Of a stretch of DNA of 10,736 bases, positions 407 to 10,645 are shown one piece after another. The DNA comes from Verrucomicrobiales bacterium. Its GTDB lineage: Bacteria > Verrucomicrobiota > Verrucomicrobiia > Limisphaerales > UBA1096. The stretch is taken from assembly GCA_002721375.1 (NCBI GenBank), contig PBKH01000012.1, positions 13,963-24,698 on the forward strand. The letters are read 5' to 3'. The notes beneath the pieces are model-generated. The model was not told the origin of the DNA and searched no databases. It saw only the letters and a list, made by a program, of their open reading frames with translations. The position numbers and the translations under genes were made by a program. Positions within the stretch are counted from its first letter, which is position 1; every line of letters starts with the position of its first letter.

Positions 407-1647
407 AAATTGTTCTCGCATACTCTGGAGGGCTCGACACCTCCGTTTTGTTGTCCTGGATTAGGGAGAAATACTCCGCTGAAGTCATCGCCTTTTGCGC
501 CGACATCGGTCAGGAAGAGGAGACCAAGGGATTGCGGCCAAAGGCCCGTAAGACCGGTGCATCGGAGATTTACATCGACGATCTGCGCGAAGAGTTCGCT
601 GCTGATTTTATATTCCCAATGATGCAGGCCGGCGCAATCTATGAGGGGCAATATTTTCTCGGCACCAGTATCGCGCGACCACTTATCGCCAAGCGGATGG
701 TAGAGATCGCCCGCAAGCACCGTGCACAAGCCATCGCCCACGGAGCCACTGGCAAAGGCAACGATCAGGTGCGGTTTGAACTTGCAGCAGCCGCGCTGGC
801 CCCAGAACTTGAGGTAATCGCCCCGTGGCGCAACGAGGAGTTCCGCAGCCAGTTCCCAGGCCGAAAAGAAATGATCGATTACTGCGTCGCGAAGAAGATC
901 CCGGTCGAGGCGAGCATGAAGAAGCCTTACTCGATGGATAGAAACTTACTGCATATCTCCTATGAGGCAGGCATGCTGGAGGATCCTTGGCTTGACGCCT
1001 CCGCCTCAAAATACAAAGGCATGTACAAGCTGAGTGTGTCACCCGAGGACGCGCCAAATAAACCGGCATACGTCACGCTGAATTTCGAGAAAGGCAATTG
1101 CATCGCCGTCAATGGCCGGAAAATGTCACCGCTCAAGGTCATGCAGACGCTCAACCGCCTCGGAGGCAAGCACGGCATCGGCCGGGTCGACATGGTGGAG
1201 AACCGTTTTGTCGGGATGAAGTCACGCGGGGTATACGAAACACCGGGCGGCGCCATCCTACACGCAACCCATCGAATGATGGAATCCATTACCATGGACC
1301 GCGAGGTCATGCACTTGCGTGACTCCCTGATCCCAGAGTATTCCAAACTTGTCTATAATGGATTCTGGTATGCACCCGAGCGGGAGGCTTTGCAGGCGCT
1401 CGTGACTGAAAGTCAGCAGAACGTCTCTGGCACCGTCCGAGTCAAGCTTTACAAGGGCAATGTTATCGCCGCCGGCTTAAAATCACCCGTCAGCCTATAT
1501 AACCCGGACATTGCCACCATGGAAGCTGACCCCACCGATGCCTACAATCAGGACGATGCCACTGGATTTATTCGCCTAAACAGCCTACGCCTGAAAGTAG
1601 CCACCAAAGTGGCAAAAGGTAAGCACTTGACCAAACGCAGGCGCTGA
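403..1647 (+). CDS. argG: argininosuccinate synthase
   Basis: This enzyme joins citrulline and aspartate, using ATP, to make argininosuccinate, the penultimate step of arginine biosynthesis; it acts in the cytosol. The 414-residue length is normal for ArgG. The N-terminal ATP-pyrophosphatase loop AYSGGLDTS is at residues 6-14, the [14 protein letters not shown] block at 113-126, and the [15 protein letters not shown] block at about 176-190; all are family hallmarks. The ATG at 403 gives the canonical [12 protein letters not shown] start, and no in-frame ATG, GTG or TTG lies in the bases just upstream. The C-terminus is a basic tail ([10 protein letters not shown]). No Shine-Dalgarno sequence sits next to the start; GGGAGGT at 344-350 is too far away. 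A zinc-ribbon gene follows after 20 bp and is probably cotranscribed. No other arg genes are in the window. Confidence 0.97.
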
Positions 1648-1667
1648 ATTGGCCAAAGTAACCCGAC

Positions 1668-2009
1668 ATGAGCAAATTGGTGCCATGCAAGATGTGCGGG
1701 AACGACCTGAGTCCGCAGGCAGCGTTCTGTCCGCAGTGCGGTCATCCTCAAATCAAGCCGGAACCTGAAAAGGCTAAGCCAAGCGGTGTGGTCGACATGA
1801 GCGGCTCTGGTCTTCGAGACCTGATGGCCGTGATTGAGCAGAATCTGGAGATTCTCCGCGAACTATCTATTCACGGCAGTGGCGAAATGAAGGCACTGGC
1901 CATCGCGCTGCTACAGGCCAAGGGACATAATATGACGCCGGACTCCACGCCCGTGACGGACCTCCCGATTGACACGCCAACGCCACCCGCCATGGACAAA
2001 CCGGGTTAA
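1668..2009 (+). CDS. small zinc-ribbon protein of unknown function
   Basis: This is a 113-residue soluble protein. Residues 7-24 form a zinc ribbon, C7-x2-C10 and C21-x2-C24 in the pattern PCKMCGNDLSPQAAFCPQCG, which resembles small treble-clef or rubredoxin-knuckle zinc ribbons common at the N-termini of bacterial proteins. A Lys/Pro/Glu linker follows, then one probable amphipathic helix (about residues 48-84, SGLRDLMAVIEQNLEILRELS onward) and a Pro/Thr/Asp-rich disordered tail. There is no signal peptide or membrane segment. It starts 20 bp after argG and has no evident ribosome site, so it may be translated from an argG readthrough message. Zinc ribbons of this size often bind protein or nucleic acid, but nothing here fixes a role. 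Confidence 0.75.
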   Translation: MSKLVPCKMCGNDLSPQAAFCPQCGHPQIKPEPEKAKPSGVVDMSGSGLRDLMAVIEQNLEILRELSIHGSGEMKALAIALLQAKGHNMTPDSTPVTDLPIDTPTPPAMDKPG

Positions 2010-2011
2010 GG

Positions 2012-2704
2012 TTAGTTGAACGTGCGGCTGATGCGATTTCGGCCACTGGATTTTTTGATATGGTCGAGCAGAACTTCCACCGCCTCATCTACATCATCAG
2101 TCAGCGTTAGCAACTCAATATCCCCCGGGCTGATATAACCTCCACCCTCAAGAGTTCTCTTTGCCCAGTTAAGGAGCCCGCGCCAATGCTTTTTGCCGAA
2201 GAGAATTAATGGAAATGGCTCGATACAGCGGGTCTGCACCAGAGTTGCTACCTCAAACAACTCGTCCAGCGTTCCAAAACCGCCTGGCATGTAGACGAAG
2301 CCCAAGCTGTACTTAACAAGGCAGACTTTCCGGGAAAAAAAGTAATGAAAGTTAATTGGCAAATTGGCGTATTGGTTGCCGCACTGCTCGAACGGGAGCT
2401 CAATATTCAACCCGACCGATGTACCTTTACCCTGTGCCGCACCCTTATTAGCAGCCTCCATGATACCTGGGCCCCCTCCGGTTATCACTGGCACATCGGC
2501 CTTGGCCAGTTTCTTGCCCATCGCCACAGTAGCCTTGTAGTAGAGATCGCGAGGCTTAGTTCGAGCAGAACCAAAAATCGTTACGGCGGGATCAATACGC
2601 GAAAGCTCCTCGAAGGAGTCTACAAACTCAGCCATGATCCGAAAGATCCGCCACGGATCCTCACGCGTGAAAGGTGCCTCGTCCTTATGGGTGATGCTTG
2701 CCAT
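2012..2704 (-). CDS. LOG family protein (TIGR00730-type nucleotide phosphoribohydrolase)
   Basis: This 230-residue cytosolic Rossmann-fold protein belongs to the LOG/'lysine decarboxylase-like' family. Plant and bacterial LOG enzymes cleave cytokinin riboside 5'-monophosphates, and many bacterial members act on AMP or other nucleoside monophosphates. The nucleotide-binding motif GGGPGIMEAANKGA is at residues 76-89 and the signature PGGFGTLDELFE at 140-151, whose Glu (E148) is the usual catalytic acid; an Arg (R125, in FFSRK) matches the conserved catalytic Arg. An upstream GTG at 2728 would add eight residues, but I prefer the ATG at 2704; neither has a clear Shine-Dalgarno sequence. The gene converges on the zinc-ribbon gene, the stops being 2 bp apart. 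Members of this family were formerly annotated as lysine decarboxylases, which the motifs do not support. True substrate unknown. Confidence 0.9.
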   Translation of the reverse strand: MASITHKDEAPFTREDPWRIFRIMAEFVDSFEELSRIDPAVTIFGSARTKPRDLYYKATVAMGKKLAKADVPVITGGGPGIMEAANKGAAQGKGTSVGLNIELPFEQCGNQYANLPINFHYFFSRKVCLVKYSLGFVYMPGGFGTLDELFEVATLVQTRCIEPFPLILFGKKHWRGLLNWAKRTLEGGGYISPGDIELLTLTDDVDEAVEVLLDHIKKSSGRNRISRTFN

Positions 2705-2740
2705 GGCTAGAGCATAACGGCCAAGCACTGAAAAGCAGCT

Positions 2741-2783
2741 TTAAAATCCAATATGGATAGAAGTTAACCAAGCATTTGGTCAA
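2741..2783 (-). terminator. tandem hairpins after the ankyrin gene, possible weak terminator
   Basis: Just past the ankyrin gene stop, the minus strand can form two hairpins. The first (2783-2764) pairs TTGACCAA with TTGGTTAA around a 4-nt loop, with one G-T wobble. The second (2758-2746) pairs ATCCA with TGGAT around a 3-nt loop and is followed by TTTTAA. Both stems are AT-rich and the second is short, so termination would be weak. It may separate the ankyrin gene from the LOG gene. Confidence 0.3.
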
Positions 2784-2788
2784 GCAAG

Positions 2789-4423
2789 TCATTCCTCGAT
2801 CTCGTTGACTGACACACGGAAAAACCGAGCGAGGTCAGCAGGTTCAGACTCGAACTCGAGCATACCAATTCCATCTTCTGTGTCGACGGACTCAACGACC
2901 TCCCAAACAGATAGGTTGATGGAATTCTCAATGTTGAACTCGAGAAGCGGCGCAATATCGCCGGTACCGTAAGGGCCAATTACGCGAAAGACCCGTTGAC
3001 CATCTTCATCATTCGTCACATCCACCCTGGTTTGTGCCTGCAGGAATTCAACCGTGTCGTGTTTGCGAATGTTGGCAGCTACATCGAACGGGGTTTCCCC
3101 AATATCGCTGAGCAGATTGAGGTCCGTACCAAAAAAAAGGTGAAGCCCGATCATGTCATTGTCTCCGGCTAAAGCAGCATCGTGAATACTTATTTTTGGA
3201 CCATTGATGCCTCCCGCCTCGATAATCATCTCGGTAATATCGACCAAGCCGGATTCCTCGGCAACGTCCAGAGGCGACCAATACCATTGATCGAGTAGGT
3301 TCGGATTGGCATCGAATTCTAGAAGGATCGCTGCGATATCGGCAAAGCCCAGTGCAGCAGCCACATTGAGGTTGGTTCTTCGCCAGTTGTCGATCGAATC
3401 CACCTTGGCCCCCGCTTCGAGCAGAATAAGGCAGTTGTCCGGATGGTTCAGCCCAACTGAATAGGAGAGAGGGGAAAAACCCTGCTCAGTTTTGGCCTCA
3501 AGGTCGGCCCCCTTGGACAGGAGCAATGCAAGGATTTCCTTGTTGCGCGAATGAGAAGCATAATGCAGCGGTGTCTTCGTGGTGTAAGCGGGCTCATTCA
3601 CATCAAACCCAGTCTTAAGCAGCTCATTTACGGCCTCGGTGTTATTGGTCTGGATAGCTGCGATGAATGATTTTTCCGCACCACTCGGAGCGTCGTTTTG
3701 CCGTAGAATATCTTCGGATTCGGCCGACTGCATAATGATAGCCCAATCTAGCGCGGTGCGCTCGGCCTTGTCCTCAGCTTCAATATCAGCCTCAGCATCA
3801 AGCAAGATTTGCAGAACCTCCGGGTAGTTGAGCTCAGCTGACATGATAAGAGGCGTGAAGCCGTGCCGGTCGGCAACCTCCAAGTTCGCCTCGTGTTCGA
3901 TGAGCAACTCTACAACTGCGATATGCCCTTTCTGCACCGCGAGCAAAATGGGGATGTTTCCATCGACATCCGTCTGGTCAATGTCGGTTCCTGCATAGAT
4001 ATGCAGCTTAACCCCAAGCACATCATTGTTCCACGCTAGGATATGGATGCCATCCGCAGGTGGCTCCACAGTGGCGCCGGCCTCAAGTAACAGGTCGATG
4101 ATTTCCTCCTTGGATCCAGAAATCGCCAGATCCAGTGGGGTCTTGGACTGATTGTTGTTAACGTCGGGATCTGCACCAGCCTCAAGAAGGAGAGCCACCA
4201 CTTCCGATTGAGTTTTCATTACAGCATAATGCAGCGGGGCGTAACCGGTCGTGTGTTTTTCATTCAGGTCAGTGTCCGCAGAAATGTGCGCTTCAATAGC
4301 CTCGATATCACCTTCAGAGGCCGCCTGCCAAACAGTTATTTCCGGGGTCTCTTGCCCATATGCCAGCAGAGAAAGGAAATGAAAGGCACAGAACAAAGCC
4401 ATCGTTTTCGCAGTTTCTTTCAC
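2789..4423 (-). CDS. exported ankyrin-repeat protein with verrucomicrobial-type C-terminal module
   Basis: This 544-residue protein begins with a signal peptide (basic K2 and K6, hydrophobic core about 8-21, probable cleavage after A21-Y22-G23). From about residue 30 to 465 it is a chain of roughly 13-14 ankyrin repeats, several nearly canonical (TPLHYA at 284-289, LLLEAGADPDVN at 78-89, LLLSKGADLEA at 300-310). Residues 478-544 are a different, probably beta-rich segment containing W507 and ending in ARFFRVSV, a pattern I associate with the ends of secreted Verrucomicrobiota proteins. The start is a GTG; the in-frame ATG at 4402 would remove the basic n-region of the signal, so GTG is preferred. 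A GGAGGGG motif lies 15 nt upstream. Ankyrin repeats bind proteins; the partner is unknown. It is 101 bp from the sugar operon and probably separately expressed. Confidence 0.88.
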   Translation of the reverse strand: MKETAKTMALFCAFHFLSLLAYGQETPEITVWQAASEGDIEAIEAHISADTDLNEKHTTGYAPLHYAVMKTQSEVVALLLEAGADPDVNNNQSKTPLDLAISGSKEEIIDLLLEAGATVEPPADGIHILAWNNDVLGVKLHIYAGTDIDQTDVDGNIPILLAVQKGHIAVVELLIEHEANLEVADRHGFTPLIMSAELNYPEVLQILLDAEADIEAEDKAERTALDWAIIMQSAESEDILRQNDAPSGAEKSFIAAIQTNNTEAVNELLKTGFDVNEPAYTTKTPLHYASHSRNKEILALLLSKGADLEAKTEQGFSPLSYSVGLNHPDNCLILLEAGAKVDSIDNWRRTNLNVAAALGFADIAAILLEFDANPNLLDQWYWSPLDVAEESGLVDITEMIIEAGGINGPKISIHDAALAGDNDMIGLHLFFGTDLNLLSDIGETPFDVAANIRKHDTVEFLQAQTRVDVTNDEDGQRVFRVIGPYGTGDIAPLLEFNIENSINLSVWEVVESVDTEDGIGMLEFESEPADLARFFRVSVNEIEE

Positions 4424-4524
4424 CTTAAAAGGAAGCTACCCCTCCACAAAATCGATGCAAGCTGCATTTGCTTAAGACCTTTTCTAAACTGCGCTACCAA
4501 GCAGGCCAGCGACAAATTGCACCT

Positions 4525-5550
4525 TCAATTCATATGTAGCACAGCCTTGATAACACCTGCCTCAGGGTTGAGCCAGTTGGGGAATTCGCCGATAAAATCA
4601 GCGTAGCTGGCATGGTGCGAAAGCCAAGGGTCGGTGTTTATCACGCCATCCTCAATCAGTGAAATGATTCGGGAAAAATCCGCTGGCACGGCGTTGCGGC
4701 TAGCTTTAATCGTAAGCTCTGGACGGTGAATAGCTACATGCTTAAAGGTCAAATCCTGAGTAGTGATTCCGACGTAGAGGACCTGCCCAGTGAATGAACA
4801 GTACTGGAAGGCATTGGACATGGAAACATGGCTACCGGTCGCGTCGATAACTGTGTCGGGCAAATTACCAGCATTAGCTTCGCGCAGACGATCAATCTCC
4901 GTCCCATCGTTCTTAAACACCACAGTGTGATCCACGCCGAGCTTCTCTTCACAGAATTGCAAACGGGTTTCATTCATATCCATGACCGTTATTTCGGCTC
5001 GGGCGACCTTGAGAAACTCAATCGCCGCCATTCCAATCGGTCCGGCGCCTATCACCATCACCTTGTCGTCGGCCTGTGTGGCAGCACGATTCACACAGTT
5101 GCAACCAATCGCTAGAGTTTCCACCAGCGCAAGTTGCTCCATAGTCAATTTCGCTGATGGGTGTAATTTGCACGCCGGCAAGACAAAACGTTCGCACATG
5201 CCCCCATTCTTGTGCACACCAATAACCTCTAGGGATTCACAGCAATTAGTCGCCCCTTTCTTGCAAGCGTAGCAATCGTCGCAATTCATGTATGGCTCAA
5301 TAGAGCAACGATCACCAGTCTGAACATTTTCCACTCCTTGACCCACTGACAACACCTTTACGCCAAGCTCGTGACCAGGGATGACTGGATAGGTGAAAAA
5401 CGGCATCTTACCCAGATAGCCGGAAACATCCGTACCACAAATGCCCACCCGATGCACCTCCACCAAAGCCTCCCCAGGCCCAGGCTGTACCGGCTCATCG
5501 ATGGTCGCATGAATAAAGCGCTCAGGTTTTTCGAGAATGATTGCTTTCAT
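4525..5550 (-). CDS. zinc-dependent medium-chain dehydrogenase, probable L-galactonate (aldonate) 5-dehydrogenase
   Basis: This 341-residue NAD-dependent alcohol dehydrogenase of the Tdh/RspB group (COG1063) has all the expected sites: catalytic-zinc residues C38 (GICGTD), H60 and E61 (GHE); structural-zinc cysteines C90, C93, C96 and C104; and the Rossmann loop VIGAGPIG at 166-173, with D191 ending the second strand, which favours NAD over NADP. The closest known roles in this group are L-galactonate 5-dehydrogenase and L-gulonate 5-dehydrogenase, which oxidise C5 of a six-carbon aldonate to a keto-uronate. The neighbours make L-galactonate to D-tagaturonate the most economical assignment. 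The ATG at 5550 is 4 nt past the aldo-keto reductase stop; a GGAG lies about 13 nt upstream within the end of that gene. Sorbitol or threonine dehydrogenase activity cannot be excluded from motifs alone. Confidence 0.8.
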   Translation of the reverse strand: MKAIILEKPERFIHATIDEPVQPGPGEALVEVHRVGICGTDVSGYLGKMPFFTYPVIPGHELGVKVLSVGQGVENVQTGDRCSIEPYMNCDDCYACKKGATNCCESLEVIGVHKNGGMCERFVLPACKLHPSAKLTMEQLALVETLAIGCNCVNRAATQADDKVMVIGAGPIGMAAIEFLKVARAEITVMDMNETRLQFCEEKLGVDHTVVFKNDGTEIDRLREANAGNLPDTVIDATGSHVSMSNAFQYCSFTGQVLYVGITTQDLTFKHVAIHRPELTIKASRNAVPADFSRIISLIEDGVINTDPWLSHHASYADFIGEFPNWLNPEAGVIKAVLHMN

Positions 5551-5554
5551 GAAA

Positions 5555-6484
5555 TTAATTGTTCTCCGGCAATCCTTCGATGTGACCGATATCCTTGATC
5601 GGCTCTAGGATGGCCAGCACCTCGGTTAGTAAAGTCTCATCCATCGGAGTCTCTGCCCAATTGGCCCAATTGCGGACATTTTCAGGATTCGCGCTACCTG
5701 CAATGGTAGTAGCAATATCGGGATGCGCCACACAGAATTGCACAGCCAGTTGCGCAATATCCACTCTTTGCGCGGCGCATAGGTCGGCAGCTTGTTTGCA
5801 AGCAAGACGCACTTCCTCCGGTTCCTTGTGCCACTCAGGTAGAGACGCATTGGTGAGCAGGCGCGCACAGAAGGGACCGGCGTTCATTATGCCTACACCT
5901 TTGGCCTTGAGATAATCAAAGTGCTCAGCGAAACGGGTGTTTTGCAGGTGATAATTATTATAGGAGAGCACCACATCCACGTCGATCTGGTCGATGATGA
6001 ACGGGAAAATCTTCATCGGATACCCGGAGAACCCGATGTACCGCACCTTACCCGCATCACGGATTTTTTGGATAGCCGGAATGGTTTCATCGACAATCTG
6101 CTGCATTTCCACAAATTCGATGTCGTGGCACAGAATTATGTCGAGATAGTCCACGCCCATCCGATGAAGGCTAACATCGATACTCTCAGCCACTCGCTTT
6201 GCGGAGAAATCAAAGTGCTGCAAATCATACCGTCCCAACTTGGTACCGAGAATAAAATCCTCGCGCGACCGATCTCGCAACACCTGCCCCAGCAACACCT
6301 CACTCATGCCGCGGCCGTAGAATGGCGAGGTATCGATGAAGTTCATGCCTAGCTCGAGCGCCACGCGGCAGGATTGAAGCGCCTCATCGATGGTCACCCG
6401 GCGAAACTCCTGCCCAAGCGACGAAGCGCCAAAGGAGATCACCGGGAGTTCCAAATCCGTGTTGCCTAGCTTGCGTCGTTCCAT
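5555..6484 (-). CDS. aldo-keto reductase, probable L-galactose dehydrogenase
   Basis: This is a 309-residue (alpha/beta)8-barrel aldo-keto reductase. The catalytic tetrad is visible: D51, Y56 (IDTSPFYGRGMSE), K82 (GTKLGRY) and H120 (LCHDIEF). Several blocks match what I recall of plant L-galactose dehydrogenase and its bacterial relatives: FDFSAKRVAESIDVSL at 91-106, LCHDIEF at 118-124, ETIPAIQKIRDAGKVRYIGFSG at about 133-154, and AILEPIKDI near the end. That enzyme oxidises C1 of L-galactose with NAD to the galactonolactone; some relatives accept L-fucose or D-arabinose. The operon supplies a lactonase and an aldonate dehydrogenase for the next steps, which supports this direction. The start ATG at 6484 is 5 nt past the preceding stop and has no strong ribosome site, so coupled translation is likely. 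Confidence 0.82.
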   Translation of the reverse strand: MERRKLGNTDLELPVISFGASSLGQEFRRVTIDEALQSCRVALELGMNFIDTSPFYGRGMSEVLLGQVLRDRSREDFILGTKLGRYDLQHFDFSAKRVAESIDVSLHRMGVDYLDIILCHDIEFVEMQQIVDETIPAIQKIRDAGKVRYIGFSGYPMKIFPFIIDQIDVDVVLSYNNYHLQNTRFAEHFDYLKAKGVGIMNAGPFCARLLTNASLPEWHKEPEEVRLACKQAADLCAAQRVDIAQLAVQFCVAHPDIATTIAGSANPENVRNWANWAETPMDETLLTEVLAILEPIKDIGHIEGLPENN

Positions 6485-6489
6485 GTTTT

Positions 6490-7305
6490 TTAAGCAAGGT
6501 GTTGATTAAAGGCGCCAATCGTGGCTTTCGCTGCCGCATCCGAATTCGGCCATGGAAATGCCTCAGCGGAAGCATATTTATCGTAGCCAATTGTCTTCAG
6601 CGCCGCTGCAATTGGAGTGTAATCCATGTGTCCGCATCCAGCCGGCCGACGGTTACTGTCAACAAAATGGACGTGGCCAATGTGACTGCCGTAAGTACTA
6701 AGGCCCTCAGCGATGTTGGCCTCCTCGATGTTCATGTGGAACAGATCAGCAAGGATTACAACATTATCTGTATCCAACGTACCAAGAAACGCCACAGTTT
6801 CATCGGCACGATTTAGCAGATTGCTTTCATAACGATTGAGTGGCTCGTAAATTAGCGGCACCCCAACAAGTTTGGCGTGTTCGCCCAGTTCATCGAGCGC
6901 CTCGCGCAGCCAGCATAGAGCCTGTTCTTTACTCACCTCGCCCTCAAACCGCCCCTGCATGGAGCCAATTATCGCAGGCGCACCCAACTGAGCTCCTGCA
7001 TTGATAATGGACCGAATAAAATTCTTTGCGTTATCGCGTGAGGCAGCGTCCGGCTGGCACAAGTGCCATTTGTGAATCACCCATCCCCCGCCCGTACCCA
7101 CCGCAGCGACCTTGAGCCCACATTCAGCGGTGAGGGCTTTAAGGTCGGCCACTGGTATGGCATCAGCATTGGGCGCAAACACCTCAACAGCGTCGTAACC
7201 CAGCTTAGCAGCCTTAACACAGCCGGCAGCGAGGTCATGCCAGAAAACAAACGGGCCGCCTTCGGCCTCTTTAACCAGCGAAATGGTAACAGCAGATTTG
7301 ATCAT
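6490..7305 (-). CDS. sugar epimerase, D-tagatose 3-epimerase / IolO-like TIM barrel
   Basis: This 271-residue protein is of the xylose-isomerase-like TIM-barrel family (PF01261). The metal ligands expected from D-tagatose 3-epimerase are present with the same spacing: E154, D187, H213, E248. The surrounding active-site residues E160, H190 and R219 also fit. The blocks EPLNRYE (154-160), ADLFHMNIEE (186-195) and DSNRRPAGCGHMD (216-228) resemble the Thermotoga 5-keto-L-gluconate epimerase IolO as I remember it. IolO inverts the carbon next to the keto group, linking 5-keto-L-gluconate and D-tagaturonate, the very compound expected in this operon. Its ATG overlaps the stop of the upstream uxaE-like gene by 4 nt (ATGA), so the two are probably translationally coupled. 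Hydroxypyruvate or 2-oxo-tetronate isomerase activity is an alternative; the exact substrate is inferred. Confidence 0.78.
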   Translation of the reverse strand: MIKSAVTISLVKEAEGGPFVFWHDLAAGCVKAAKLGYDAVEVFAPNADAIPVADLKALTAECGLKVAAVGTGGGWVIHKWHLCQPDAASRDNAKNFIRSIINAGAQLGAPAIIGSMQGRFEGEVSKEQALCWLREALDELGEHAKLVGVPLIYEPLNRYESNLLNRADETVAFLGTLDTDNVVILADLFHMNIEEANIAEGLSTYGSHIGHVHFVDSNRRPAGCGHMDYTPIAAALKTIGYDKYASAEAFPWPNSDAAAKATIGAFNQHLA

Positions 7306-8543
7306 GCAATAAAGATGCGTTTAAAATGACGGTCGTATAGATTCTCGGTTACATTTTTGCCTACGATATCTGCGTGAGCCTTCAGCAGGTCGGTGTACCG
7401 CGTGCCTTCCTTGGCAGCAATCTTGAAGGCGATGTGCAGCAACTGGCGGAAGTGTTGGTTGAACTCCGGATGCTCCTGTACATGTCGTAGTCCGTTTGCG
7501 TATTGATCGCCGCTCCAGCCGGAAACTTCATTAGCAGTGGGCAGCTTGGCGGAATCAATATCGATCACCGAAGCATAAGGCTCGCACATCGCATCGACAT
7601 TCTCCAGTGCCTTCGCGTAAATATCCTTGGCCAAATGCAAACCTTCGCCACCAGCTTCCGCCAAGCCGATCAATTCCTCAAGCCATGTGGTGCCCGCGGT
7701 CTTCACGTGAACGCCAGAGCCGGTGCGACGGATGGCATTGCCAATGATCGGGTAAATGGAAAACTTGTCGCTACCACTATGCACACTGAGCTTGAGATTC
7801 TCTGGCAATCCATAAGCACTGATGGCATGCGCAATCACGGCGAGGTCATCATTAAATTCCTTCTCGAACTGCTCCAGATCGCCCACGTAATCAACCCCCT
7901 TATTAAAACGGCCAGTAAACTTGGGCGCAATGGTCTGAATCCGCACACCCTCATCGGCCAGCGCGGCGAGAATTATCAACAACTCCGGCGGAGTCTGCGG
8001 CGTGTCGGTTTCATCCATTGATACCTCGGCAATGAAGTCATCTTTTTTGGACTCTATGTATCGGTAAATAGTTCCGGCCTCCGCCACGGCTGCAAGATAC
8101 TTGCCGGCAACTTTAATTACGTACTCTCGCGAAATATCAAATGGCAAATCGATGCCCTCAATAGAGACACTGCCAATCAACTCCGGATGCTTCTGCATGA
8201 ATGTTGCCACGGCATCATCGAGAGGCTCTTGCCCTATGAAATCTGCAACATCAATCGTGAAGAAATCCGAGCAGCTTAGATACTTGTCAACCGTATCCAT
8301 GTTGATGTGGTCAGCATCTACATGCCACCCCAACTGCCACCCCACCGCCTCCACCGCTGCCTGGGCTGCATCAAATACGCTTTGAGGATGCGAACCGATA
8401 AAACTGTGCTCACGGTTCGACTTGTTCCAGATCGGGATCACGTCAATGCCCCGCTCGGCCAATTTAACGCAGGCCTCTAACTGCGCCTCTGCCTGATGGG
8501 CAAAGCGATCACCTACGCCGATGGTATATTTCTCTAATATCAT
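7302..8543 (-). CDS. uxaE: tagaturonate epimerase family protein
   Basis: UxaE interconverts D-tagaturonate and D-fructuronate by C4 epimerisation, a cytosolic metal-dependent step leading into hexuronate breakdown. Of 413 residues, the recognisable blocks are GVGDRFAHQ (9-17), the WHVDADHINMDTVDKY stretch (73-88), VSMDETDTPQTPPE (174-187), LSVHSGSDKFSIYP (252-265) and HVKTAGTTWLEE (279-290). They correspond to VDETETPTSP-, HSGSDKFSVYP- and HVKTAGTSYLE-type blocks of Thermotoga UxaE, with Asp, Glu and His residues suited to metal binding. It lacks the N-terminal 70-80 residues that the Thermotoga enzyme carries. I chose the ATG at 8543. A TTG at 8591, with GAGG 10 nt upstream, would add 16 residues (MRPELKALFPDTVIII) and cannot be excluded. 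The stop overlaps the next gene's start. Confidence 0.85.
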   Translation of the reverse strand: MILEKYTIGVGDRFAHQAEAQLEACVKLAERGIDVIPIWNKSNREHSFIGSHPQSVFDAAQAAVEAVGWQLGWHVDADHINMDTVDKYLSCSDFFTIDVADFIGQEPLDDAVATFMQKHPELIGSVSIEGIDLPFDISREYVIKVAGKYLAAVAEAGTIYRYIESKKDDFIAEVSMDETDTPQTPPELLIILAALADEGVRIQTIAPKFTGRFNKGVDYVGDLEQFEKEFNDDLAVIAHAISAYGLPENLKLSVHSGSDKFSIYPIIGNAIRRTGSGVHVKTAGTTWLEELIGLAEAGGEGLHLAKDIYAKALENVDAMCEPYASVIDIDSAKLPTANEVSGWSGDQYANGLRHVQEHPEFNQHFRQLLHIAFKIAAKEGTRYTDLLKAHADIVGKNVTENLYDRHFKRIFIA

Positions 8544-8670
8544 GATTATAATGACTGTATCCGGAAAAAGCGCTTTCAGTTCCGGCCGCAAGAATCTACA
8601 TCCTCGTTAGAAGAAGGAACAGCAATCAGAGATTTTGCTGGCAAACAGATTAACAGTAACGAAAACCGAA
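8544..8670 (-). other. 127-bp gap inside the operon, with an alternative uxaE start
   Basis: This is the only wide gap in the cluster. It contains GAGG (8605-8602) placed 10 nt before an in-frame TTG (8591), which could start the epimerase gene, and an in-frame TAA just upstream at 8609-8607 that limits any longer extension. I see no hairpin followed by a T-run and no good promoter, but the length leaves room for processing or an internal start of transcription. Confidence 0.35.
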
Positions 8671-9507
8671 TCAGCTTATAAGCCGATAAAAACGGCGAGC
8701 GGTGCCTTCAAAAATCTCAAAAGTGTCGGCTTCGCTCAGGTCTCCCAACGCCTCCTTCAAGGCAGCATGCACGTTCTCATAACTACCAGCCAACTCGCAA
8801 ACAGGCCAATCGGAGCCGTACATACAACGACTCGGTCCGAAGTGCTCCAGCGCAGCCTCCACATACGGCTTTAGGTCGGCAGGCTTCCAATGCGACCAAT
8901 CTGCCTCGGTAATCATACCGGAAAGTTTGCAAAAAACATTTTCGTGCCGGGATGCGGCTTTAAATGCCGGCAGCCAGTCGCTCATAGAATGATCACCGAT
9001 TCTCGGCTTGGCCAAGTGATCAATGACCATCGGGAGCCCGGGGAGTTCTCGGGCAAGTTGATCTGCGTGCTTCAGATGGCGCACATAAAACAACAAATCA
9101 AACGGCACCCCGTGCTTCTCCAGCATCTTCAGCCCCCGCATTACCTCGAACCGCACAATAAAATCGTCATCCGGCTCATCATGTGTCACGTGACGGACAC
9201 CGACGAACTTCGGATGATCCCGGAACTCGAGCAACTGCTCTTCGCACGCCTCGCTTGTGAGATCCACCCAGCCCACCACACCCACAATCCAGTCGGTCTT
9301 CTCCGCCATGGCCAGCACCCAGCGATTCTCGGCTATATCATGTTGTGTCTGGACAAAGATGCTTTGCTGCACGCCAGTAGCATCCAGGTGTGGCTTGAGA
9401 TCATCCGGCAGATAATCGCGTCGAATGGCATTAAGATTCGGGGCATCCAGCCAAGCGTAATCAAAAGGCTGGCTCCGTTGCCAAAAATGTTGATGCGCAT
9501 CAATCAT
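8671..9507 (-). CDS. sugar lactonase of the amidohydrolase superfamily (COG3618)
   Basis: This 278-residue cytosolic TIM-barrel hydrolase belongs with L-fuconolactonase, L-rhamnonolactonase and L-galactonolactonase. The N-terminal metal motif DAHQHFW is at residues 3-9 (H5, H7); other conserved elements are GVRH (H106), VIDHLAKP (D163, H164), CKLSG (K194) and YGSDWPV (D233). Known members open 1,4- or 1,5-lactones of L-fuconate and L-galactonate, which fits the product of the aldo-keto reductase in the same operon. No fuconate or rhamnonate dehydratase is nearby, so an L-galactonolactone role fits the neighbourhood better than the classical fucose or rhamnose routes. The ATG at 9507 lies 7 nt past the stop of the small first gene; an AAGGAG sits 15 nt upstream, inside that gene's end, so translation is probably coupled. 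Confidence 0.85.
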   Translation of the reverse strand: MIDAHQHFWQRSQPFDYAWLDAPNLNAIRRDYLPDDLKPHLDATGVQQSIFVQTQHDIAENRWVLAMAEKTDWIVGVVGWVDLTSEACEEQLLEFRDHPKFVGVRHVTHDEPDDDFIVRFEVMRGLKMLEKHGVPFDLLFYVRHLKHADQLARELPGLPMVIDHLAKPRIGDHSMSDWLPAFKAASRHENVFCKLSGMITEADWSHWKPADLKPYVEAALEHFGPSRCMYGSDWPVCELAGSYENVHAALKEALGDLSEADTFEIFEGTARRFYRLIS

Positions 9508-9877: not shown

Positions 9878-10612
9878 TCATTTTTTGATTGAATTCAGCT
9901 TGATCAACTTGATAGCGCTTGTGGCGAAGCGCTCCCCAAGAGTCCTGTAGCCTTCGGCCGAATAATGCAGATCATTCTTGATCTTCTTGCCCCTACGATT
10001 GACGCCGTCGTTGAGGTCGTCTGTGTTCACCCAGCTGAATCGTGGGCTGGAGTCTGCCACTGTCACTTGTGCTTTGCGAACCATCGTCCAGTGTGGATAT
10101 CTGCTGTTTTTCATGTCAAAGTCGCTTAGTCGGCCGATCACAAAATGAACATCCTTGCGTTTTAAATCTTTGGATAACTGTTTGTACAACCCCTTTAGAC
10201 TTATCTCGTAAACTTTACCCCAACTCATCTTCGCGTCCCTCTCACCTTGCATCCAGATGAAACTTACGGAAGTAAGTTTCAGGCCAGAGATTTTTGGCCG
10301 AACCTTCGACATCAGGCGGTCATACAGATCGCCGGTGGATTCAGGTTTTTTTCCTTCAGGAGATTCCCACTTCTTCCACCAACGCTGAATCGGTTGACCA
10401 CCCATAGCATCCTGCACCACAATTACATTATCACTACCGAGGGCCGCCTTCACCGACGGCGTGAACGCCTCATCAGGCCGGTGCCCTTGCATGTTGGACT
10501 GTCCCGAAAGTATGAAAAGGTGCTTCCCTGCCTCCGAGGCATTGCCCAAGAACTGTTGCGATACGCCGAAGAGCATAACGAATGCAACTGTTAAAAAATG
10601 AATTGATTTCAT
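9878..10612 (-). CDS. exported SGNH hydrolase, sialate O-acetylesterase-like (SASA/CE6 type)
   Basis: This 244-residue protein starts with a signal peptide (MKSIHFLTVAFVMLFGVSQQ, probable cleavage near N24-A28), so it acts in the periplasm or outside the cell, probably removing acetyl or other acyl groups from sugars or polysaccharides. Family blocks are FILSGQSNMQG (33-43) with nucleophile S39, the oxyanion Gly in AMGGQPIQRWW (69-79), FIWMQGERDA (118-127), and the C-terminal NDLHYSAEGY (213-222) with H216. The Asp three residues before the catalytic His is replaced by N213, with D214 one position later; activity may be altered. A TTG at 10642 would add ten residues ahead of the signal, so I prefer the ATG at 10612. 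It lies 150 bp upstream of the sugar operon on the same strand. Confidence 0.85.
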   Translation of the reverse strand: MKSIHFLTVAFVMLFGVSQQFLGNASEAGKHLFILSGQSNMQGHRPDEAFTPSVKAALGSDNVIVVQDAMGGQPIQRWWKKWESPEGKKPESTGDLYDRLMSKVRPKISGLKLTSVSFIWMQGERDAKMSWGKVYEISLKGLYKQLSKDLKRKDVHFVIGRLSDFDMKNSRYPHWTMVRKAQVTVADSSPRFSWVNTDDLNDGVNRRGKKIKNDLHYSAEGYRTLGERFATSAIKLIKLNSIKK

Positions 10613-10624
10613 CCTACCGAAATG

Positions 10625-10645
10625 TTCTTGATATTTAATCAAGAA
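10625..10645. promoter_or_regulatory. perfect 8-bp inverted repeat just upstream of the esterase gene
   Basis: TTCTTGAT (10625-10632) and ATCAAGAA (10638-10645) are exact inverted copies around a 5-nt spacer ATTTA. The element lies 12 bp before the ATG at 10612, so it could be a repressor operator or a hairpin in the 5' leader that blocks translation. It overlaps the alternative TTG start at 10642, which is another reason to favour the ATG. Confidence 0.45.

Follow-up and report, generated by a model that had tools for sequence, protein, structure and literature searches.

A 10,736-nucleotide stretch of a Verrucomicrobiales genome (assembly GCA_002721375.1, contig PBKH01000012.1; hereafter the window) carries five genes for sugar-converting enzymes in a row, two of them for putative epimerases, and raises the question of which sugar is degraded and what the second epimerase contributes. 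The window covers bases 13963-24698 of a 28,035-base contig in a 3.2 Mb genome of 78% completeness. Between positions 4525 and 9507 its minus strand contains five intact open reading frames (ORFs), arranged head to tail in the order lactonase, UxaE, epimerase, aldo-keto reductase (AKR) and zinc dehydrogenase (Table 1). Following the direction of transcription, the lactonase and UxaE genes are separated by 127 bp, the UxaE and epimerase genes overlap by 4 bp, and the next two spacers measure 5 bp (epimerase/AKR) and 4 bp (AKR/dehydrogenase). All five proteins exceed the cut-offs of their Pfam families, and none reaches a family cut-off in NCBIfam. Scans for promoters and terminators yielded no more signals than shuffled sequences. 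The initial annotation had described this cluster, its enzyme families and their active sites; the cluster is real, the families are supported and the catalytic residues are intact, their roles in the AKR, dehydrogenase, epimerase and lactonase being those usual in these families.

Table 1. Positions and Pfam matches of the cluster genes and of two neighboring genes in the window.
Feature	Positions	Strand	Length	Pfam match
Amidohydrolase-type aldonolactonase, first gene of the run	8671..9507	-	278 aa	PF04909 (Amidohydro_2), 189.9 bits
Short UxaE	7302..8543	-	413 aa	PF16257, 209 bits (gathering score 27.1)
IolO/LguG-like sugar-acid epimerase	6490..7305	-	271 aa	AP_endonuc_2, 146 bits
L-galactose-dehydrogenase-type AKR (LguA-like), putative first oxidation	5555..6484	-	309 aa	PF00248 (Aldo_ket_red), 167 bits
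RspB/LgoD-type zinc dehydrogenase (LguD-like)	4525..5550	-	341 aa	ADH_N + ADH_zinc_N, 81 + 73 bits
SASA-type carbohydrate acetylesterase	9878..10642	-		92 bits
Ankyrin-repeat protein	2789..4423	-		

The cluster probably encodes the oxidation of both L-galactose and L-glucose, of the kind described in the verrucomicrobium Luteolibacter LG18, with an exit through D-fructuronate. The AKR would oxidize the L-aldohexose at C1, and the resulting lactone would be opened to L-galactonate or L-gluconate by the lactonase, or spontaneously where the lactonase is missing. Oxidation at C5 by the zinc dehydrogenase would then give D-tagaturonate or 5-keto-L-gluconate. The IolO/LguG-like enzyme would convert 5-keto-L-gluconate to D-tagaturonate, thus joining the two arms, and UxaE would turn D-tagaturonate into D-fructuronate. 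In the genus, a short-chain dehydrogenase/reductase (SDR) could reduce the latter to D-mannonate, which a nickel-type epimerase could convert to D-gluconate.

The first oxidation is indicated by the AKR: in the Protein Data Bank (PDB) it matches five sequences of L-galactose dehydrogenase best, with scores of 248-305 bits, as compared with 106 bits for the next match. An oxidative route of the L-galactose type, as had been suggested for the cluster, is supported. NCBIfam matches of this protein comprise distant reductases only, and its tetrad Asp51/Tyr56/Lys82/His120 is intact. The zinc dehydrogenase is likely an aldonate 5-dehydrogenase, judging from its relatives: PRK10083 is the best of 30 NCBIfam families (181 bits, under its cut-off of 376), and RspB (4ilk) is the top PDB match. 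It is of the medium-chain type, with intact zinc ligands Cys38/His60/Glu61 and Cys90/93/96/104.

The second epimerase, whose presence had been recognized in the initial annotation but left without a role, is likely a 5-keto-L-gluconate epimerase interconverting this compound with D-tagaturonate in the L-glucose arm. Its top NCBIfam match is NF041099 (IolO) at 219 bits, under the cut-off of 300, and its top PDB match is TM_0416 (2zvr) at 150 bits; residues Glu154, Asp187, His213 and Glu248 are intact. The closest characterized relatives are IolO and, likened by family and pathway rather than by direct comparison with its sequence, LguG, which points to a role with L-glucose and 5-keto-L-gluconate.

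The product of the UxaE gene is likely a D-tagaturonate/D-fructuronate 4-epimerase, as suggested by its homologs of known structure. Its start codon is probably the ATG at 8543 rather than the TTG at 8591 chosen by the ORF lister, because the homologs in loci L030 and L041 begin with MILEKY there. The protein represents a short form, in which the Pfam match begins at about position 64 of the 475 profile positions, and it has no NCBIfam match. Its PDB matches 6il9, 6ila, 6ilb, 9lhu and 9lhw represent UxaE of Cohnella and other epimerases acting on tagaturonate/fructuronate, and alignment to 6il9 and 9lhu revealed the conserved residues of the solved enzymes. Residues E172, D176, E177, H254, D258, K259, H278 and K280 do not vary in an alignment of 18 sequences, one of them a distant UxaE. 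The structure is modelled with high confidence, with a mean pLDDT of 93.5, no residue below 50 and a pTM of 0.90.

Gene neighborhoods were compared among 48 named loci with a UxaE relative. The closest named relatives belong to Verrucomicrobiota metagenome-assembled genomes (MAGs), most with 82-88% identity, and their record titles (ERR599..., ALOHA, Arabian, FRAM) point mostly to seawater. Counts for the five genes were taken from a tblastn table, because ORF picks sometimes fell on shadow frames in GC-rich loci. UxaE, epimerase and AKR genes follow each other in the order of the window in 12 of the 48 loci; the zinc dehydrogenase gene is next in 11 of them, and the contig of the twelfth ends. 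One further locus, from an Akkermansiaceae MAG, has the order mutarotase-epimerase-AKR-dehydrogenase-UxaE, and the remaining 35 show other contexts or lie on contigs too short to tell. UxaE is encoded apart from the epimerase and the AKR in three close relatives (L042, L045, and L073).

In a tree of 58 UxaE sequences, from which short or broken hits and the near-copies L029, L032-L035, L038, L040, L043, L044, L046, and L049 were left out, the window UxaE falls into a clade of 24 rows with support of 100/99. This clade consists of 16 rows from L-sugar contexts and eight unlabelled rows, with no row from a uronate context. The context labels, assigned by us and with L042 and L045 labelled L-sugar although their loci have the dehydrogenase only, need three changes on the tree versus 11.0 on average over 500 shuffles; the starred branches force one change only. 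Rows L095, L048, and L112, the last on a very long branch, branch off elsewhere, and recruitment of UxaE to the L-sugar cluster may therefore have happened repeatedly.

Elsewhere, short UxaE and the uronate isomerase UxaC are encoded in the same locus in at least eight of the 48 loci and are adjacent in six (MAGs of Bacteroidota, Pseudomonadota and Armatimonadota), as counted from ORF picks and one scanned cluster member. These shared loci support the tagaturonate/fructuronate activity. Some of them also contain an SDR of the D-mannonate oxidoreductase type, 6-phosphogluconate dehydrogenase, a hexonate epimerase of the nickel type, a protein resembling KDG kinase, GH28 or pectinesterase, as judged from scans of one or two proteins per group. 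The UxaC-type loci resemble the galacturonate branch of Thermotoga maritima (gnd, uxaE, uxaD, gntE, gntK; PMC3750489).

Two other settings of short UxaE were observed. In six Planctomycetes loci, a protein of 444-476 aa is encoded directly upstream of it (L064:2100-3461 and five homologs in L065-L069). The L064 protein matches nothing in Pfam at 1e-5 or in NCBIfam at 1e-10, and its DLHTH stretch looks like that of uronate isomerases by eye; a D-2-hydroxyacid dehydrogenase gene lies downstream in all six loci, and genes for an LDH2-type dehydrogenase and an SDR in five. In L047:6472-11745, short UxaE lies between a sulfatase-like gene, recognized by eye, and a gene for a TctA-type transporter.

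The lactonase likely opens L-galactono-1,5-lactone and L-glucono-1,5-lactone. The COG3618 label is that of the initial annotation; the sole NCBIfam match is L-fucono-1,5-lactonase (FuconLaconase) at 231 bits, under its cut-off of 400, the top PDB match is 4dlf at 156 bits, and the HxH motif and late Asp are intact. This enzyme is the optional and least constant part of the cluster. Its gene is located directly upstream of UxaE in 8 of the 48 loci, and no lactonase reaching 100 bits was found in seven close relatives whose contigs extend 2 kb or more upstream (L029, L031, L032, L038, L039, L044, and L049) or in the three with UxaE placed elsewhere. Another lactonase of this superfamily (26% identical) is encoded in the source genome, in a row (L129:2861-6734) with an L-rhamnonate-dehydratase-like protein (278 of 393 bits) and a 567-aa protein that is transporter-like by eye; this row is perhaps a separate oxidative sugar-acid route.

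The pathway of Phocaeicola (Bacteroides) vulgatus, reportedly described by Hobbs in 2014, had been the first comparison for an L-galactose route; it is not known to include an IolO-like epimerase or UxaE. A better fit and the closest proven system is that of Luteolibacter LG18, a member of the same phylum. Its L-glucose/L-galactose pathway, reported in October 2025, is encoded by lguABCDEF, lguG, and lguH, and LguA, LguD and LguG have been both assayed and knocked out (PMC12632266). The AKR LguA has a kcat/Km of 274 with L-galactose and 7.1 with L-glucose and is inactive on L-fucose and D-arabinose; LguD oxidizes L-galactonate and L-gluconate; LguG, a relative of IolO (35% to IolO), converts 5-keto-L-gluconate to D-tagaturonate and is needed for L-glucose only; D-tagaturonate is reduced by LguC, and the D-altronate formed is dehydrated by LguB (PMC12632266). 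LguA shares its family with the AKR of the window, and LguD and LguG probably share theirs with its zinc dehydrogenase and epimerase. Likewise, rbsD adjoins lguG in LG18, and an RbsD-type gene adjoins the epimerase or AKR gene in several relatives of the window: RbsD/FucU mutarotase genes lie beside one of the two in L048, L084, L117, and L155, and beside the AKR/dehydrogenase pair in L152.

The two systems differ after D-tagaturonate. LG18 relies on LguB and on LguC, whose Prokka name suggests a UxaB-like enzyme, whereas the window has UxaE and no gene resembling LguB, LguC, LguE or LguF. In addition, lguG is located outside the LG18 cluster, in which no lactonase is named, while the epimerase and lactonase genes of the window are inside. 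Database searches had placed all seven lgu orthologs in some Luteolibacter only (PMC12632266). L-Glucose oxidation via L-gluconate to 5-keto-L-gluconate is shared with Paracoccus 43P, which continues by reduction to D-idonate; as described in PMC12632266, that pathway includes no C4 epimerase or UxaE step. No publication that places UxaE in the breakdown of L-galactose or L-glucose was found in a search of mostly open-access literature.

Co-occurrence of these genes was analyzed in a set of 58 genomes, of which 21 (61-93% complete) belong to the genus of the source genome and 37 represent one other family of the order each; in this comparison a partial UxuA match with an internal stop in G039 was not counted. 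The AKR was counted at identities of at least 67%, a cut chosen after the matches were seen, which retains 31 of the 34 genomes with a match at E <= 1e-50. An epimerase match (E <= 1e-40) is present in 30 of these 31. At the order level the AKR occurs in 17 of the 37 families and the epimerase in all 17 (Fisher p about 1e-8). The cut omits three order-level genomes with AKRs of 42-51% identity, G033 and G041 (with UxaE but no epimerase) and G057 (with both); with these included, the epimerase accompanies the AKR in 18 of 20. Short UxaE is encoded by 15 of the 17 AKR genomes, and another protein of the UxaE family (33-38% identity) by the other two, G022 and G055. On the fragmentary contigs of these 17 genomes, the epimerase gene is found within 5 kb of the AKR gene in eight, a UxaE-family gene in seven, and one or both in 12. 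The G055 cluster has the order AKR-epimerase-lactonase-UxaE, and its UxaE belongs to another subfamily (31% identical in the alignment; 402 Pfam bits versus 209 for the window protein), so that this activity seems to have been acquired there independently.

The exit from the pathway is the most uncertain part of this reconstruction. UxaE in the cluster, together with the absence of Mannitol_dh_C proteins (the UxuB/UxaB family) from all 21 genus genomes, agrees with the earlier idea of an epimerase branch substituting for tagaturonate reductase. The pathway had also been called self-contained, which is not supported: the five-gene cluster lacks genes for a reductase, dehydratase, kinase, aldolase, transporter and regulator, and UxuA and UxaC are likewise found in none of the 21 genus genomes. 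Thus, neither textbook exit is seen in the genus, the proposed synteny with uxuA and uxuB fails, and both the UxuB/UxuA exit and entry through UxaC were rejected; galacturonate is therefore not a likely source here.

Other dehydratases were considered. A dehydratase of the UxaA/GarD type is encoded in 13 of the 21 genus genomes. The UxaA-type gene of the source genome was rejected, being located outside the cluster among unrelated-looking genes and nearest to galactarate dehydratase (380 of 731 bits). A ManD-type mannonate dehydratase was likewise rejected: of eight enolase-superfamily matches in the source genome five were scanned, three giving 84-152 bits versus a cut-off of 550 and two no match at 1e-15.

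With neither UxuA nor UxuB present, D-fructuronate in the genus probably leaves through SDR reduction and nickel-type epimerization, as in T. maritima. A LarA homolog of at least 90 bits is present in 17 of the 21 genomes, and an SDR gene directly precedes it in all five genomes with a strong homolog that were read. The one SDR scanned scored 306.6 bits, above the D-mannonate oxidoreductase cut-off of 281; an SDR gene of the genus lies at L139:644-1456. This pair suggests conversion of D-fructuronate to D-mannonate and further to D-gluconate. KDPG aldolase is encoded in 19 of the 21 genomes. In T. maritima, GntE2 turns D-mannonate into D-gluconate (PMC7583248). The likeness to its UxaE/UxaD/GntE/GntK/Gnd branch lies in the UxaE family and in the SDR and LarA-type enzyme of the genus, which could act as UxaD and GntE. 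That branch, however, starts from galacturonate, while entry in the window would be from an L-aldohexose and the genus lacks UxaC.

Several observations weigh against the dual L-galactose/L-glucose pathway or parts of it. Every substrate is assigned by analogy with characterized relatives, and the scores of the lactonase, the dehydrogenase and the IolO match lie under NCBIfam cut-offs. The window AKR and dehydrogenase appear to be relatives of LguA and LguD, but orthology is open to doubt: relative G041 has an AKR/dehydrogenase pair (L152), 42% and 47% identical to that of the window, in which the N terminus of the dehydrogenase is more LguD-like. The published LguA and LguD N-termini occur in none of 360 proteins (the best 120 of each search). 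The order-level epimerases are 50-60% identical, and among 13 genus genomes with both AKR and epimerase, eight have an epimerase of at least 83% identity, while in five the only one (53-62%) is encoded on another contig; some entries of the co-occurrence tally may therefore be paralogs, and the tally reflects relatives within a genome, not always the operon copy. As for the exit, the one genus LarA homolog scanned scored 194 bits versus a cut-off of 500. The source assembly has no strong LarA homolog, only a weak one of 35 bits (L145) with no SDR gene beside it, although no search of that assembly aimed at SDRs was made. LarA homologs also occur in five genomes of the genus in which UxaE had no match, and the SDR/LarA pair is unlinked to the five-gene cluster. 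Finally, L-glucose is presumed to be absent from nature (PMC12632266).

This last presumption favors degradation of L-galactose only, derived from algal polysaccharide, with another or incidental role for the IolO-like epimerase. LguA prefers L-galactose about 40-fold, and the lguG knock-out has no growth defect on this sugar (PMC12632266). The location of the epimerase gene inside the operon, and the relative that accompanies the AKR, if not always as its neighbor, throughout the order-level AKR genomes, nevertheless make this alternative unlikely. Oxidation of L-fucose (6-deoxy-L-galactose) or D-arabinose would suit the only NCBIfam match of the lactonase and the FucU-like mutarotase genes adjoining the cluster genes in relatives. 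It is made very unlikely by the inactivity of LguA on both sugars and by the oxidative L-fucose route itself, which uses fuconate dehydratase (PMC5507952) instead of a 5-dehydrogenase and UxaE; no dehydratase of this kind is encoded in the cluster.

Hardly more can be said for an inositol route of the Thermotoga type, in which an IolM zinc dehydrogenase, IolO and UxaE would act on diketo-inositol and 5-keto-L-gluconate. IolO is indeed the top NCBIfam match of the epimerase, IolM is third for the dehydrogenase, and T. maritima, used as a search control, also has UxaE; but the dehydrogenase scores lower with IolM (133 bits, cut-off 450) than with PRK10083, none of the ten scanned proteins of the window resembles IolG or IolN (a scan that did not extend to the remaining genome), and the AKR and lactonase would be left without a role, so that this route is most improbable. 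A pectin pathway, with UxaE serving galacturonate catabolism and the other genes mere neighbors, matches the loci elsewhere in which short UxaE occurs with UxaC, GH28, pectinesterase and MFS genes, but it can practically be set aside given the uronate-free clade of the window UxaE and the distribution of UxaC (0 of 21 genus genomes, 3 of 17 order-level AKR genomes).

If the dual pathway is correct, a UxaE-based counterpart of the LG18 system occurs in numerous verrucomicrobial families, marine ones among them, and the puzzling second epimerase acquires a testable role. A likely function is also provided for the short-UxaE subfamily, which has no NCBIfam name. The retention of the epimerase with the AKR raises the question of natural L-glucose or related compounds. 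Because the pairing of the two enzymes in 17 of 17 families would otherwise be without reason, and LG18 needs LguG for L-glucose only, L-glucose or another L-gluco substrate yielding 5-keto-L-gluconate could be a regular natural food of aquatic Verrucomicrobiota, a doubtful proposal that we regard as quite improbable. Were it true, a whole order would permanently maintain the breakdown of a sugar that is presumed not to occur naturally, with an exit, at least in the genus, via nickel-dependent mannonate/gluconate epimerization and not via KDG.

Locus L152 of G041 (1385-7763) encodes, besides the AKR, RbsD/FucU and LguD-like dehydrogenase, a sugar-binding protein identified by scanning and ABC-transporter-like genes recognized by eye; this uptake and oxidation cluster is perhaps closer to LG18. 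The window flanks (L005, L006) contain many ambiguous bases, seen as X in the translations. Two ankyrin-repeat proteins are encoded near the cluster, the second (L006:1633-3201) judged by eye, and a homolog of the one within the window also follows the dehydrogenase in L028, L030, L036, and L037. The SASA-type esterase gene is located upstream of the cluster, and in the relative locus L030 a homolog with 77% identity lies 4 kb upstream of the lactonase gene.

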